Positions 11,442 through 53,230 of a DNA stretch of 64,000 nucleotides are shown piece after piece (position 1 is the first letter of the stretch; each line of letters starts with the position of its first letter). A program made the translations under genes and the position numbers. The notes under the pieces were generated by a model. The model made no database searches. It saw only the letters and a program-made list of their open reading frames with translations, and was not told the DNA's origin. The DNA lies in the NCBI RefSeq assembly GCF_007830055.1, contig NZ_VLLE01000005.1, positions 62,001 to 126,000 of the forward strand, in the 5' to 3' direction. The stretch comes from Lacibacter cauensis. Lineage in GTDB: Bacteria > Bacteroidota > Bacteroidia > Chitinophagales > Chitinophagaceae.

Positions 11442-11822
11442 ATGGAAAATAGTAACAAATTCGATCTGGAAGATCGCCTTGTAGATTTTGCATGTATGTG
11501 TCTGGATGTTTGCGAACTTCTTCCTGCTACCAAAGCAGGACAAAATCTCGAATATCAGTTGTCGAAAAGCGGAACAGCTCCTGCTTTAATTTATGGGGAA
11601 GCACAAGCGGCAGAATCAAGAGCCGATTTTTTGCATAAGATGAAATTGTGTTTGAAGGAAATCAAGGAGTCAAGAATCAATCTTAAAATCATCAGGCGCA
11701 AACCTGTTGTTATAGATGAGAAAGTAGAAAAAGCATTTACTGAAAGTAATGAGTTGATGGCAATCTTTCTGAAGAGTATTGAAACAGCTCAAAGAAATGA
11801 CGAACGAAGAAAGAAGCAGTAA
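11442..11822 (+). CDS. Four-helix-bundle protein (23S rRNA intervening-sequence protein family)
   Basis: A 126-residue, highly helical protein: 'FDLEDRLVDFACMCLDVCELLPAT', 'LEYQLSKSGTAPALIYGEAQAAES', 'DFLHKMKLCLKEIKESRINLKII'. The spacing and the 'QL.KSGT...NY.EAQ'-type signature match the four-helix-bundle family first found in proteins encoded within intervening sequences of 23S rRNA genes, and very common as stand-alone genes in Bacteroidota. Its molecular function is unknown. It splits the thyA-folA pair and is bracketed by imperfect inverted repeats, which suggests it arrived as part of a small element. Confidence 0.85.
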   Translation: MENSNKFDLEDRLVDFACMCLDVCELLPATKAGQNLEYQLSKSGTAPALIYGEAQAAESRADFLHKMKLCLKEIKESRINLKIIRRKPVVIDEKVEKAFTESNELMAIFLKSIETAQRNDERRKKQ

Positions 11823-11824
11823 GT

Positions 11825-11870
11825 TGGGTGTTTTTTATTTCTCATTATTCATTTTTTATTTTTCATTCAT
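11825..11870 (+). repeat. Right arm of the inverted repeat, before folA
   Basis: T-rich stretch ending TTTTTATTTTTCATTC immediately before the folA ATG. Its reverse complement aligns with 11361-11400, sharing GAATGAAAAAT and a (A/T)TGAGAAAT block. An equivalent arm lies at 12424-12462. Confidence 0.7.
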
Positions 11871-12384
11871 GATCATAAGTTTAATCGTAGCTGCATCATC
11901 CAACAACGCCATTGGCAGAGATAATCAATTGTTGTGGCATCTGCCAACCGATCTGAAGTTTTTCAAAAATACCACATGGGCATTGCCCGTTATTATGGGA
12001 CGAAAAACCTTTGATTCCGTTGGCGGCAAGCCATTGCAGGGAAGAACCAATATTATTATCTCCCGTCAGCAGGGGTTACAGTCCACTTATGATAATGTGT
12101 GGTTTGCATCTTCGTTGGAAGATGCAATAGCGCAGGCGAAGAAACTGGAGACGAATGAAATTTTTATTGCAGGCGGCTCGCAGATATACGAGCAGGCATT
12201 ACCAATTGCCAACCGCATTTATCTTACTCGTGTGCATGCAAACATTGAAGCAGCTGATGCATTTTTTCCTGCGTTTGATGTAACCGATTGGAACCTGAGC
12301 AAGAACAGCGATTTTACTGCAGATGAAAAACATGCCTATTCATTTTCTATACAACAGTGGGACAGGGACGAAAGTAAAAAATGA
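11869..12384 (+). CDS. folA: Dihydrofolate reductase
   Basis: A 171-residue protein reducing dihydrofolate to tetrahydrofolate with NADPH. The start 'MIISLIVAASSNNAIGRDNQLLWHLPTDLKFFK' shows the DHFR signature, including the active-site acidic residue in 'LWHLPTDLKFFK'. 'VIMGRKTFDSVGGKPLQGR' is the cofactor-binding region, and 'IFIAGGSQIYEQAL' closes the fold. The open frame extends upstream to 11779, but that would overlap the four-helix-bundle gene and include the T-rich repeat arm, so the ATG at 11869 is chosen. It works with thyA upstream. Confidence 0.95.
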   Translation: MIISLIVAASSNNAIGRDNQLLWHLPTDLKFFKNTTWALPVIMGRKTFDSVGGKPLQGRTNIIISRQQGLQSTYDNVWFASSLEDAIAQAKKLETNEIFIAGGSQIYEQALPIANRIYLTRVHANIEAADAFFPAFDVTDWNLSKNSDFTADEKHAYSFSIQQWDRDESKK

Positions 12385-12462
12385 AGAATGAAAAATGTAT
12401 AATGAAGAAGTTAGTTGCCTTCACTTTTTAATTCCTCATTTGTAATTTTTAATTTTTCATTT
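12380..12462 (+). repeat. Empty copy of the inverted repeat that brackets the four-helix-bundle gene
   Basis: Left arm AATGAAGAATGAAAAATG...ATGAAGAAGT (12380-12411) overlaps the folA stop codon. The right arm is at 12424-12462 (ends TTTTTAATTTTTCATTT). Only about a dozen bases separate them. Both arms align with those around the four-helix-bundle gene, so this is the same element without cargo. It ends 4 nt before the next start codon. Confidence 0.7.
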
Positions 12463-13278: not shown

Positions 13279-13716
13279 ATGAGCTATAACATATCAGGAC
13301 AATGGAAGGGTTACTTTTGGTATGGGAAAGAATACGGCGAACTGGAAGGTGAGTCTGTTGAGTTTATGATGTTTTTAGAAGAAAATGATGGAGCGGTTCG
13401 TGGAAAGTGTTTTGAAATGGGTGGGGTTGGTGTTGCCGAAGGAGCTGATTTGGCAGAGATTAATGGTTTTGTGAAGGGCACTCAAATCAGTTTTATTAAA
13501 AAATATGCAAACGCAACTTTCCTGGATGAAGATGGAAATGCATATGCCGATCCTTCTAAAGCATCGCAGGAGATACATTACGAAGGAGAGTTTGATAGAA
13601 GTAAGATGCAATTTGAAGGCAAATGGGAGATTATTGAAAAAGTTGAAGATTACGGTGATACGCTAATCGAATATATAGCTACAGGTACCTGGATGATGAA
13701 AAAAGAAAATGATTAA
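13279..13716 (+). CDS. Small protein of unknown function
   Basis: A 145-residue acidic cytosolic protein rich in Gly, Glu and aromatic residues: 'ISGQWKGYFWYGKEYGELEGESVEFMMFLEE', 'YEGEFDRSKMQFEGKWEI', 'ATGTWMMKKEN'. The repeated G-x-W strand pattern suggests an antiparallel beta-barrel of the lipocalin/FABP kind, but I recognise no family. It lies 11 bp after the methyltransferase and overlaps, or nearly abuts, the RsmF-like gene, so it belongs to the same transcript. No signal peptide is visible. Confidence 0.7.
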   Translation: MSYNISGQWKGYFWYGKEYGELEGESVEFMMFLEENDGAVRGKCFEMGGVGVAEGADLAEINGFVKGTQISFIKKYANATFLDEDGNAYADPSKASQEIHYEGEFDRSKMQFEGKWEIIEKVEDYGDTLIEYIATGTWMMKKEND

Positions 13717-13720
13717 TAAT

Positions 13721-15142
13721 ATGCATCTACCGGCTTCCTTGATGACTTCGCTCAGTAAGATCAATAGTTTTGATCGGGATGCTTTTGTGCAGGTGCATGA
13801 AAGTGGTGAACAGGTTGTGTCGGTGCGGATGAATCCATTGAAGAGGTCAATGGTGAATGGTGAATGGTCAATCGGTAACGATCAATCAGCCAAACTAAAT
13901 AATCAGGAACTCATTCACCATTCACCATTCACCTTTCACGCTCCCGTTCCCTGGTCCTCCAATGGTTATTATCTCAGCGAACGTCCTTTGTTTACACTCG
14001 ATCCGCTGTTGCATGCCGGTGCTTATTATGTGCAGGAAGCCAGCAGTATGTTTGTGGAAGAAGCCATAAAGCAAACCGTTGATTTGTCGCAACCATTGCT
14101 GGTACTTGATCTCTGTGCAGCACCGGGTGGCAAATCAACGTTACTGCAATCGGTGATCAGCAAGGAAAGTTTATTAGTGAGTAATGAAGTAATTCAATCA
14201 CGGGTAAACATTCTCAAAGAAAACATTACCAAATGGGGAGCCGATAATGTGGTTGTAACGAACAATGATCCTTCTGCATTTTCAAAACTCAGCGGACTGT
14301 TTGATGTACTGGTGATTGATGCACCCTGCAGCGGCAGTGGTTTGTTTCGTCGAGATCCGGAAGCCATCAACGAATGGAGTGAAGCAAATGTGGAACTCTG
14401 CAGTCAGCGGCAGCAACGTATACTTGCTGATGCATGGCCTTGTTTAAAAGAAGACGGTGTGTTGATCTATAGCACCTGTTCGTATTCTGCTGAAGAAGAT
14501 GAAGAGATACTTGATTGGCTTGAGGAAAGGTTTGAAGTGGAAGGTTTAAGGTTAAGGGTTAATGATGAATGGAAGATTGATGAAGTACAATCTGCTTCAG
14601 GTGCATACGGTTATCGTTTCTGGCCCAATAAGGTAAAAGGCGAAGGTTTTTTTATTGTGGCCTTTCGTAAGAAAGAAACACCGTCACCGTTGCGCATCAA
14701 AATAAAAAAGAACCAGGAGCCTGCGAAGAAAGATGCAGCGATTGCTGCGCAGTGGATGCAAATTGCCGATGCGTATAGTTTTGTAATGCAGGGACAAATC
14801 ATTGCAGCTGTACCAACTGCATGGCACGATATGATTCAATTTTTAATGCAGGAATTAAAAGTGCGGTATGCAGGTATTGAGTTGGGCAGTATTGCCAAGA
14901 ATGATCTGTTGCCCGAACATGCATTGGCGCTGAGTACAAATGTGAACAGCAAGGTTGTGCGTGTTGAATTAACCAAAGAACAGGCATTGGACTATTTGCG
15001 CAAGAACGATCTGCAGCTCGATCATCCGCACAAAGGCTGGGCATTGGCAACTTACAATGGACTGGGCTTAGGCTGGATGAAGTTATTGGGCAACCGCATG
15101 AATAATTATTATCCGAAAGAATGGCGGATATTGATGCGATGA
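13721..15142 (+). CDS. 16S rRNA m5C methyltransferase, RsmF/RsmB (NOL1/NOP2/Sun) type, with in-frame repeat insertion
   Basis: A 473-residue RNA (cytosine-5)-methyltransferase. SAM-binding motif I is 'LDLCAAPGGKSTLL' near residues 129-142. Motif IV is 'VIDAPCSGSGLFRRD', and the catalytic Cys is in 'YSTCSYSAEEDE'. A C-terminal PUA-like domain ends 'GLGLGWMKLLGNRMNNYYPKEWR'. The start at 13721 (MHLPASL) fits relatives better than the ATG at 13709 that overlaps the preceding stop. About residues 43-76 ('SMVNGEWSIGND...HHSPFTFHAP') are encoded by a palindromic repeat that also lies inside fmt. They interrupt the loop between 'VSVRMNPLK' and 'VPWSSNGYYL' without breaking the frame. Confidence 0.9.
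   Translation: MHLPASLMTSLSKINSFDRDAFVQVHESGEQVVSVRMNPLKRSMVNGEWSIGNDQSAKLNNQELIHHSPFTFHAPVPWSSNGYYLSERPLFTLDPLLHAGAYYVQEASSMFVEEAIKQTVDLSQPLLVLDLCAAPGGKSTLLQSVISKESLLVSNEVIQSRVNILKENITKWGADNVVVTNNDPSAFSKLSGLFDVLVIDAPCSGSGLFRRDPEAINEWSEANVELCSQRQQRILADAWPCLKEDGVLIYSTCSYSAEEDEEILDWLEERFEVEGLRLRVNDEWKIDEVQSASGAYGYRFWPNKVKGEGFFIVAFRKKETPSPLRIKIKKNQEPAKKDAAIAAQWMQIADAYSFVMQGQIIAAVPTAWHDMIQFLMQELKVRYAGIELGSIAKNDLLPEHALALSTNVNSKVVRVELTKEQALDYLRKNDLQLDHPHKGWALATYNGLGLGWMKLLGNRMNNYYPKEWRILMR
13847..13945 (+). repeat. Palindromic repeat inserted in frame in the RsmF-like gene
   Basis: The left arm contains ATGGTGAATGGTGAATGG and the right arm CCATTCACCATTCACC, about 45 nt apart. The sequence begins GTCAATGGTGAAT and ends CACGCTCCC, as does the copy in fmt on the opposite strand (19837-19933). 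It is fully translated. Confidence 0.85.
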
Positions 15143-19518: not shown

Positions 19519-20529
19519 TTAGCTTCTGTATCCCCTTAAAAAATCTTCAATCAACATTCTTTTCTTTCCTTCCAGTTGTAATTCCAGCACATGAACAAAA
19601 CCATTGCTGCAGGCAAATTTGAAATAGGTTTTGCCATCGGTAACAGGTTCTCCAATGGTCTGGTTGCTTGGAGCGGCCTGCCCTGTAACGATCTCTTTCT
19701 TTGATCGATAAATCTTCATCAGCTTTCCGTTAAACGTTGTAAACGCACCGGGGAACGGAGAGAGCCCACGAATTAAATTATGTACTTCGTCGACTGTTTT
19801 TGTAAAATCGATCTTGCAGGTTTCGGTGAAAATTTTGGGAGCGTGTTTTAATGGTGAATGGTGAGTGGTGAGTGGTGAATGAGCTGTTGATACTTCAGCG
19901 TCTCCTATTGACAATTCACTATTCACCATTGACGACTGCGGTTTCTCCTCCAGCGTTCCGTTCACCAATCCTTCCACCGTTTTTACCAGCAGTTGTGCAC
20001 CAATCTCTTTCATGCGGTCGTGTACTTCGCCTGCGGTTTCATCTTCACCAACCGGAAACGATTCCTGCAACAGTATATCGCCGGTATCAATTTCATGTTT
20101 CAGTTTAAACGTGGTAACACCGGTTTCTTTTTCACCATTAATCACAGCCCAGTTAATCGGTGCAGCACCACGGTATTGCGGTAACAAACTGCCATGCACA
20201 TTCACCGTACCCAGCTTCGGCATATTCCATACCACTTCAGGCAACATGCGAAACGCCACCACGATCTGCAGATCGGCACGCAGTGCAATTAACTCATTCA
20301 GAAAATCAGGATTCTTCAGTTTCTCCGGTTGCAATACATGCAAACCATTTTGCACAGCGTATTTTTTTACCGCACTTTCGGTGAGCTTCATACCTCGTCC
20401 TGCAGGCTTATCCGGCGCAGTAATGACGCCTACCACATTATAACCTGCCTGCACCAATGCATCGAGCGATGCTACTGCAAACTCAGGTGTACCCATAAAC
20501 ACAATGCGGGGAAATTCTCTTGTAACCAT
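19519..20529 (-). CDS. fmt: Methionyl-tRNA formyltransferase with in-frame repeat insertion
   Basis: A 336-residue enzyme that formylates initiator Met-tRNA using 10-formyl-tetrahydrofolate. The catalytic triad is visible: Asn110 and His112 in 'TVNVHGSLLPQYRGAAP', Asp148 in 'EIDTGDILL'. The C-terminal OB-like tRNA-binding domain begins at 'HAPKIFTETCKID'. Residues about 200-229 ('SMVNSELSIGDAEVST...HHSPLKHAP') are encoded by a copy of the palindromic repeat also found in the RsmF-like gene. They lie in the linker between the catalytic and C-terminal domains, where an insertion is likely tolerated. A perfect -7 box ends 4 nt before the start codon. Confidence 0.95.
   Translation of the reverse strand: MVTREFPRIVFMGTPEFAVASLDALVQAGYNVVGVITAPDKPAGRGMKLTESAVKKYAVQNGLHVLQPEKLKNPDFLNELIALRADLQIVVAFRMLPEVVWNMPKLGTVNVHGSLLPQYRGAAPINWAVINGEKETGVTTFKLKHEIDTGDILLQESFPVGEDETAGEVHDRMKEIGAQLLVKTVEGLVNGTLEEKPQSSMVNSELSIGDAEVSTAHSPLTTHHSPLKHAPKIFTETCKIDFTKTVDEVHNLIRGLSPFPGAFTTFNGKLMKIYRSKKEIVTGQAAPSNQTIGEPVTDGKTYFKFACSNGFVHVLELQLEGKKRMLIEDFLRGYRS
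19837..19933 (-). repeat. Palindromic repeat inserted in frame in fmt
   Basis: Read on the fmt strand it begins GTCAATGGTGAATAGTGAAT and ends with a row of CACCA(C/T)TCACC units and CACGCTCCC. Order, orientation relative to the gene and end sequences match the copy at 13847-13945 in the RsmF-like gene. Confidence 0.85.
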
Positions 20530-32689: not shown

Positions 32690-32848
32690 AACAGACGATG
32701 AAAAAACAACGATTTCCCCAATGAAAACACAGCTTATGCACATTCTGAAAAACCTTTTTTTGAGAATGATTGCGGAATATAAAATTTGTCCTAAATTCAT
32801 TCTGTTAACAATTACTATTACCCATTTTTATTCTAAAATCTAAAACAA

Positions 32849-33262
32849 ATGGCAACAAAAAAAGCAAAGAAAGCCGCACCTAAAAAGGCTGCAAAAAAAG
32901 CTGCTCCTAAGAAAGCTGCTCCTAAAAAAGCTGCAAAGAAAGCCGCTCCTAAGAAAGCTGCTGCTCCTAAAAAAGCTGCGAAGAAAGCTGCTCCTAAAAA
33001 GAAAGCAGCCCGTAAGCCAAATGCTGCATTTATGAAAGCGCTTACACCAAGTGCTGATCTCGCTGCAGTAATCGGTAACAAGCCTGTACCACGTACAGAA
33101 GCTGTAAAGAAAATCTGGGCTTACATCAAAGCAAACAAACTGCAGGATGCGAAGAACAAACGTATGATCAATGCTGATGCAAAACTGAAACCTGTTTTCG
33201 GTGGCAAAGCACAGGCATCTATGTTTGATATGGCGAAATTCCTGAACAAGCATTTAAGCTAA
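32849..33262 (+). CDS. SWIB/MDM2 domain protein with histone H1-like N-terminal tail
   Basis: A 137-residue protein. Residues 1-57 are an almost pure Lys/Ala/Pro tail built from repeated 'KKAAPKKAA' units, like the C-terminal tail of eukaryotic H1 or bacterial Hc1-type proteins. Residues 62-137 form a SWIB domain ('LTPSADLAAVIGNKPVPRTE', 'KIWAYIKANKLQDAKNKRMI', 'FDMAKFLNKHLS'). The tail should bind DNA non-specifically. The SWIB fold is otherwise typical of chromatin remodelling complexes, and of Chlamydia and some Bacteroidota. It has its own terminator and a 150-bp A/T-rich upstream region. Confidence 0.9.
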   Translation: MATKKAKKAAPKKAAKKAAPKKAAPKKAAKKAAPKKAAAPKKAAKKAAPKKKAARKPNAAFMKALTPSADLAAVIGNKPVPRTEAVKKIWAYIKANKLQDAKNKRMINADAKLKPVFGGKAQASMFDMAKFLNKHLS

Positions 33263-46250: not shown

Positions 46251-46379
46251 GTTATGGGTTAAATGTTACGGGTAGGGGAAACTCAAACATCAAGACACAA
46301 ACAAAAAATATAAATTCCTGTAAGGTAGTAGTTCGTTACGGGAGTTTATACACGTAACCCATAACCTTTAACCCATAAC
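46251..46379. repeat. Inverted repeat between the membrane-protein gene and mntH
   Basis: GTTATGGGTTAAATGTTACG (46251-46270) and its near-complement CATAACCTTTAACCCATAAC (46360-46379) pair over about 22 nt with two mismatches around an 80-nt A-rich centre. Its form resembles the GTGAATGG and AATGAAAAATG families in this window. Confidence 0.65.
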
Positions 46380-53095: not shown

Positions 53096-53230
53096 AAGGG
53101 TGGTTTTTTGTTCAGGTTATTTATTATGAAAGATGAACTACGAGTTACGAAGTGTAAGATGTTGCCACTATACTCACTCATGTTTTACGATAATCCGAAT
53201 TCCAAATCCCCAATTCCCAATTCCAATATT

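Follow-up and report, generated by a model that had tools for sequence, protein, structure and literature searches.

Inserts made of paired heptamer arrays interrupt housekeeping genes of Lacibacter in frame. We conclude that, rather than copies of a single conserved mobile element, they are a polarised class of dispersed repeats, which is probably made by template-switch or foldback synthesis. The window, that is, the whole 64-kb stretch of DNA that was analysed, corresponds to positions 62001-126000 of contig C4 in a 4.95-Mb genome. As the initial annotation had claimed, a palindromic pair lies in frame inside both the RsmF-like rRNA methyltransferase gene and fmt, with the layout (GGTSAAT)n – unique spacer – (ATTSACC)n in each (Table 1), and the two genes encode the related peptides it had described, SMVNGEWSIGND...HHSPFTFHAP and SMVNSELSIGDA...HHSPLKHAP. 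Allowing at most one mismatch, ATTCACCATTCAC has 10 matches in the window where 0.12 would be expected, every one of them inside these two genes. The RsmF-like arms are 89% complementary across 27 nt, and the RNA fold of this copy (-37.7 kcal/mol, z = -5.9 versus shuffles) is a hairpin far stabler than the shuffles, the fold of the fmt copy being weaker (z = -2.3). The copies had been described as sisters; the arms are indeed alike, but the relationship is confined to them, because the two spacers are unrelated and each is unique in the sequence searched. Their identical end, CACGCTCCC, does not belong to the element in Fmt, and we rejected it as an element boundary: there it encodes the HAP of a native KHAPKIFT motif, which nearly all congeners have regardless of the insert.

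Table 1 Host genes, parts of their palindromic inserts and one further heptamer pair, in window positions
Feature	Position	Strand	Remarks
RsmF-like rRNA methyltransferase (host gene)	13709-15142	+	PF01189, PF13636, PF17125
RsmF-like 5' arm, G-rich heptamer array, GGTCAATGGTGAATGGTGAATGGTCAAT	13845-13872	+	predicted translation SMVNGEWSI
RsmF-like spacer, 40 nt	13873-13912	+	single-copy in 1.66 Mb searched
RsmF-like 3' arm, C-rich heptamer array, ATTCACCATTCACCATTCACCTTTCAC	13913-13939	+	predicted translation IHHSPFTFH
fmt (host gene)	19519-20529	-	
fmt 5' arm (sense of fmt), GTCAATGGTGAATAGTGAATTGTCAAT	19907-19933	-	predicted translation SMVNSELSI
fmt spacer	19881-19906	-	single-copy in 1.66 Mb searched
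fmt 3' arm (sense of fmt), C-rich heptamer array	19850-19880	-	predicted translation HSPLTTHHSPL
Other purine/pyrimidine heptamer pair, AATGAAG... / ...ATTTTTC	12380-12462 (period-7 arrays from 12374)	+	outside RsmF-like gene and fmt

Searching the whole genome revealed abundant further copies: TTCACCATTCACCATTCAC (at most one mismatch) gave 32 matches, versus none for the reversed control. In a census of approximate tandem arrays that covered 1.66 Mb, one third of the genome, period 7 was represented by 59 arrays and the other periods between 5 and 17 by 0 to 12 each, except period 14 (26 arrays), which is a multiple of 7. Twenty of the 59 period-7 arrays, about a third, lie well inside open reading frames, genes being defined here by simple ORF calls with a coding fraction of ~0.91. 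The genes that carry arrays in frame encode RsmF, Fmt, HemC, PyrD, urocanase, IspG (GcpE) and a P-type ATPase; a small methyltransferase gene and an ABC ATPase gene bear arrays as well, and overlapping search matches disclosed an internal array in a second RsmB/F-like gene at contig C6. At a looser threshold, 57 canonical heptamers were distinguished among 108 arrays, GGTGAAT forming the largest group. The arrays are strongly skewed (mean |GC skew| 0.75 versus 0.26), and in most pairs both arms have the same unit type, some pairs such as AAGTACG...ACTCACC in pyrD having unlike arms. Within arrays of G000, G001 and congener sequence, C<->G exchanges account for 49 of 214 unit mismatches, about twice each other transversion type, and typically affect the centre of TSA. 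Only the heptamer arms are common to the copies: no conserved core or spacer was found among them, the spacers being unique in the 1.66 Mb searched, and the 64-kb window contained no Rfam match.

Other repeats were also observed. Within the window, a period-7 array of AATTCCC (53194-53224) is found in L. luteus too, with altered units, and another inverted pair with heptamer-like arms, GTTATGGGTTAAATG... and ...ACCCATAACCTTTAACCCATAAC, occupies 46251-46379. At two places on contig C1 of G000 (~929430-929490 and 934150-934216), the palindrome CGTCAGACGAGGGCGTCAGACG directly adjoins heptamer arrays and recalls CGTC-tagged REPs. A dihydrofolate-reductase-like ORF (11779-12384) has a TTG-started upstream extension of repeat-like FYFSLFIFYFS sequence, its true start probably being the internal MIISLIVAASS, and 15-nt tandem repeats rich in lysine, alanine and proline, like a histone-H1 tail, lie at 32846-33004.

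The two arms of a pair follow a fixed order. When neighbouring arrays 3-120 nt apart were paired by GC skew only, whatever their unit, the G-rich arm preceded the C-rich arm in 28 pairs and followed it in none (threshold 8), orthologous pairs in these counts not being independent; at threshold 9 the numbers were 19 versus 0, and at a third threshold 16 versus 0. Control pairs 0.6-3 kb apart gave 6 G...C versus 20 C...G, and because the order is not fixed in this way at that distance, polarity is a property of the element. The RRTSART arrays form 19 close pairs, of which 17 are convergent, with the G-strand 5' and the C-strand 3', and none is divergent; the 17 represent ~12 distinct loci (p ~2e-4). 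Among 18 loci of other genera, G-first order prevailed over C-first by 12 to 4; the exceptions come from three array-crowded loci, and a reversed pair there may combine arms of neighbouring elements. One exception was met within Lacibacter, the CCACAGT-type fmt pair of genomes G005 and G011, whose 5' arm is C-rich; G005 lies outside the scanned set and the G011 fmt pair is absent from the scanned arrays.

Comparison of 14 Lacibacter genomes showed that relatives without an insert exist. Urocanase site 1 is cleanly empty in six species (G002, G003, G004, G010, G011 and G012), reading HFGGTLKG or HFGGSLKG, and empty variants read QFGGTLKG in one species and HFGGTLRG in one. The site is filled in five species, with heptamer arrays in G000 (63 nt), G005, G007 and G008 and with a different repeat, CCCCCCAAAGGGGGG, in G009. 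No target-site duplication was visible in this single clean comparison of empty and filled sites. Where an insert site is occupied, relatives have different residues and different DNA. At urocanase site 2, at least five kinds of heptamer pair occur, depending on the species. In fmt the unit types of congeners are GGTGAAT, CCACAGT, AGTGGAA or CGTCAGT; in PyrD the left arms are of the AAGTACG, GGCACAA or GCCGTTAG type, the right arms are mostly ACTCATC or ACTCACC, and four genomes (G003, G004, G006 and G012) have a short linker. The RsmF insert differs by 21 nt between close species, which equals three heptamers or seven codons, and in G007 and G008 a dispersed repeat resembling TCGACTTCGCTCAGG or CCCTTCGACTTCGCTCAGGG and read as HPSTSLRA replaces the heptamers. 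Thus, at a fixed site, the unit sequence changes across species, but period 7 and the reading frame persist, and often so does the inverted layout. Since the filling DNA varies by species at the RsmF, Fmt, PyrD and urocanase sites, the protein site is permissive. Aligning ~300 kb of orthologous sequence from G000 and G001 showed that the stretches between genes mostly hold different repeats in place of one another, the two genomes being too diverged for clean junctions. Repeats of the CCCCTCCCAAGAGGGG / CCCCCCAAAGGGGGG type also occur beside heptamer arrays or in their place on contig C11 of G001 (near 472300 and 532000), and one such repeat was seen in frame, in the urocanase of G009.

A pure GGTGAAT array brings a TGA once per 21 nt in every frame. 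All 24 in-frame TSA triplets in sense G-arms are TCA and none is TGA, compared with ~25% TCA in intergenic units. This bias shows that the frame is kept open, but the choice of intact genes with open frames makes it inevitable in part. The Fmt insert (~residues 199-227) falls in the linker that connects two domains, Formyl_trans_N (8-185) and Formyl_trans_C (232-335), and the alignment to solved homologues breaks there. It is modelled as an unstructured, disordered linker, with pLDDT < 50 for residues 201-225; this structural reading is that of the Fmt model, the RsmF model being too poor. In the RsmF-like protein, the insert covers ~residues 45-78, within the N-terminal region. The peptides encoded by inserts, for example HHSPFTIHHSP, VNGEWSMVNGEWS and SMVNGEWSIGNDQSAK, most likely have no function of their own. 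That they are functional protein segments under selection, such as RNA-binding tails, is extremely improbable: the occupation of the same sites in several species speaks for it, but the residues differ wholly between species, genes with empty sites are intact, the same peptide recurs in unrelated enzymes and the Fmt insert is predicted to be disordered. The in-frame position of the inserts and the differently spelled units in sister species suggest that genes tolerate fast-changing repetitive DNA.

The initial annotation had proposed a mobile palindrome able to insert in frame. This is partly borne out, and neither of the two outcomes that it named as refuting was seen: further copies abound in the genome, and relatives differ in residues and DNA at the site. 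The inserts are acquired, since copies occur in frame in unrelated genes and relatives have empty sites. A single mobile palindrome family is unsupported, because the copies have no conserved core or spacer and no duplication is visible at the one clean site, because at least four or five units alternate at one site across species and because the candidate enzymes tested (Y1_Tnp/RAYT, Ku and RVT_1) are inconsistently present. More broadly, the inserts could be a miniature REPIN- or MITE-like element that has the arrays as its ends and is mobilised in trans by a tyrosine transposase, unit diversity reflecting several families. This would account for an inverted polarity that is fixed and for arms that are coupled, features shared with REPINs (PMC3116915), and for the many dispersed loci and empty sites. 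Y1_Tnp was found in 13 of the 14 genomes, and one copy lies 3.3 kb from a palindromic copy: the P-type ATPase array of G000 (C2:837512-837622) neighbours that genome's strongest Y1 transposase match (C2:840950-841294). We nevertheless judge this explanation unlikely. Y1_Tnp is absent from G010, which has 17 array matches, while G007 has the highest Y1_Tnp count (12) and 2 array matches; the 57 distinct heptamers counted in a third of the genome fit sequence-specific recognition poorly; and the spacers are unique. By this distribution RAYT is dispensable and is not supported as the mover, although G010 may have lost it recently. None of the three enzyme families tracked the arrays in a family search of the 14 genomes, which a diverged enzyme could escape, each family being missing from array-bearing genomes.

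The template-switch or foldback explanation is the one that fits most observations, provided that synthesis is seeded by existing arrays. During stalled replication or break repair, a nascent G-skewed strand would gain 7-nt units, either through slippage or through a switch of template to arrays at other places. The G-array strand would then fold back or switch to the opposite strand and copy itself, giving G-array - loop - C-array. Such a hairpin would be unstable, and the site would be rebuilt again and again with new units. A gene could tolerate an array that falls within a loop or linker, preserves the frame and introduces no stops, so that the in-frame state would be what survives selection. 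We infer the insertion event itself, and favour template-switch or foldback repair synthesis as its route. The unlike arms in pyrD and the C-rich 5' arm of fmt in G005 and G011 count against this explanation, as does the recurrence of a single unit at dozens of loci, which needs spread between loci and for which slippage alone is insufficient. Local slippage on its own, acting on pre-existing 7-nt words with inverted pairs arising by chance, is highly improbable. It would explain the many different units and draws on period 7 being the favoured long-repeat unit in many bacteria, for which PMC4679880 and PMC4692102 cite a slippage hypothesis, but it predicts neither the 28-to-0 polarity, nor the matching unit type of the two arms, nor identical units at many distant loci. 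Alternatively, at a break, a telomerase- or terminal-transferase-like enzyme might add one and the same G-rich heptamer to each 3' end, with or without an RNA template, before the two ends are joined head to head. Such break-end addition predicts an inward G-strand on both sides, fitting polarity as well as foldback does, together with unique spacers, no duplication, re-breakage of sites and unit turnover, and a bacterial reverse transcriptase that makes tandem repeats exists (DRT10, PMC12632851). However, RVT_1 was detected in 6 of the 14 genomes and not in the other 8, among them the array-bearing G004 and G010, Ku was detected in one, and no template RNA is known; both reverse transcriptase and Ku-dependent joining were rejected as candidates for their inconsistent presence, and we hold this explanation improbable. 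A bolder proposal, which we also regard as distinctly unlikely, is that Lacibacter and its relatives have an unrecognised process by which each end of a break or stalled fork receives G-skewed heptamers. The same sites would thus be rebuilt in different species with new 7-nt words, and housekeeping proteins would continually gain loops of 15-40 residues as a by-product of DNA repair.

Whatever the mechanism, it is constrained by the strict strand polarity. Lacibacter bears on the question of why 7-nt units prevail among the long simple repeats of many bacteria, and this genus offers a tractable set, with many loci, empty sites and site-by-site replacement of units in about a dozen species. Heptamer inserts are also a route to new disordered loops in ordinary enzymes, and database segments such as HHSPFTIHHSP or VNGEWSMVNGEWS are to be taken as DNA repeats read as protein, not as domains.

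Our search of the open-access literature turned up no description of polarised heptamer pairs with unit turnover in housekeeping genes, and a search for heptamer arrays in Chitinophagaceae was without result in that literature, most subscription papers lying outside it. The initial statement that no example had been described is nonetheless too strong as to kind. RPEs and REPs that lie in frame within ORFs are known palindromes that, like the Lacibacter inserts, sit in unrelated, presumably functional genes (PMC3733652); their sequence is defined and conserved, and many of them end in GTAG or CGTC, whereas the Lacibacter inserts have no conserved core and consist, in their arms, of heptamer arrays whose units change. 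REPINs likewise combine an inverted pair and a spacer into a unit and occur as single arms too, but the sequence of their ends is fixed and linked to a RAYT gene (PMC3116915). PARCELs are coding repeats with dyad symmetry and sporadic distribution, built on a 25-residue tandem protein motif, as opposed to 7-nt arrays in housekeeping enzymes (PMC2996958). Synthesis of the DRT10 type needs a reverse transcriptase gene with a template RNA, and several array-bearing genomes have no RVT_1 match. TAACTGA direct repeats, known from Beggiatoaceae, Cyanobacteria and five Bacteroidetes, are 7-nt tandem units with no known mechanism, but they are all of a single unit, usually sited immediately before start codons, with only one indirect repeat in the main genome (PMC4679880). 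The convergent G-rich heptamer pairs of Xanthomonas are a further precedent. According to the accessible portion of that report (PMC4692102), Xanthomonas and Nostoc have dispersed, degenerate G-rich heptamer repeats, GGGAATC / GGGGA(C/T)T, with 70-75 pairs per Xanthomonas genome that converge on opposite strands. The likeness lies in dispersed, degenerate 7-nt tandem units and in close pairs with convergent G-rich strands. The same portion describes one unit family per lineage, ~90% intergenic in Xanthomonas and G-quadruplex-forming, and neither site-specific unit turnover nor in-frame inserts in housekeeping genes; the Lacibacter units, by contrast, are GGTSAAT and many others rather than of the GGGNATC type, with 20 of 59 arrays inside genes.
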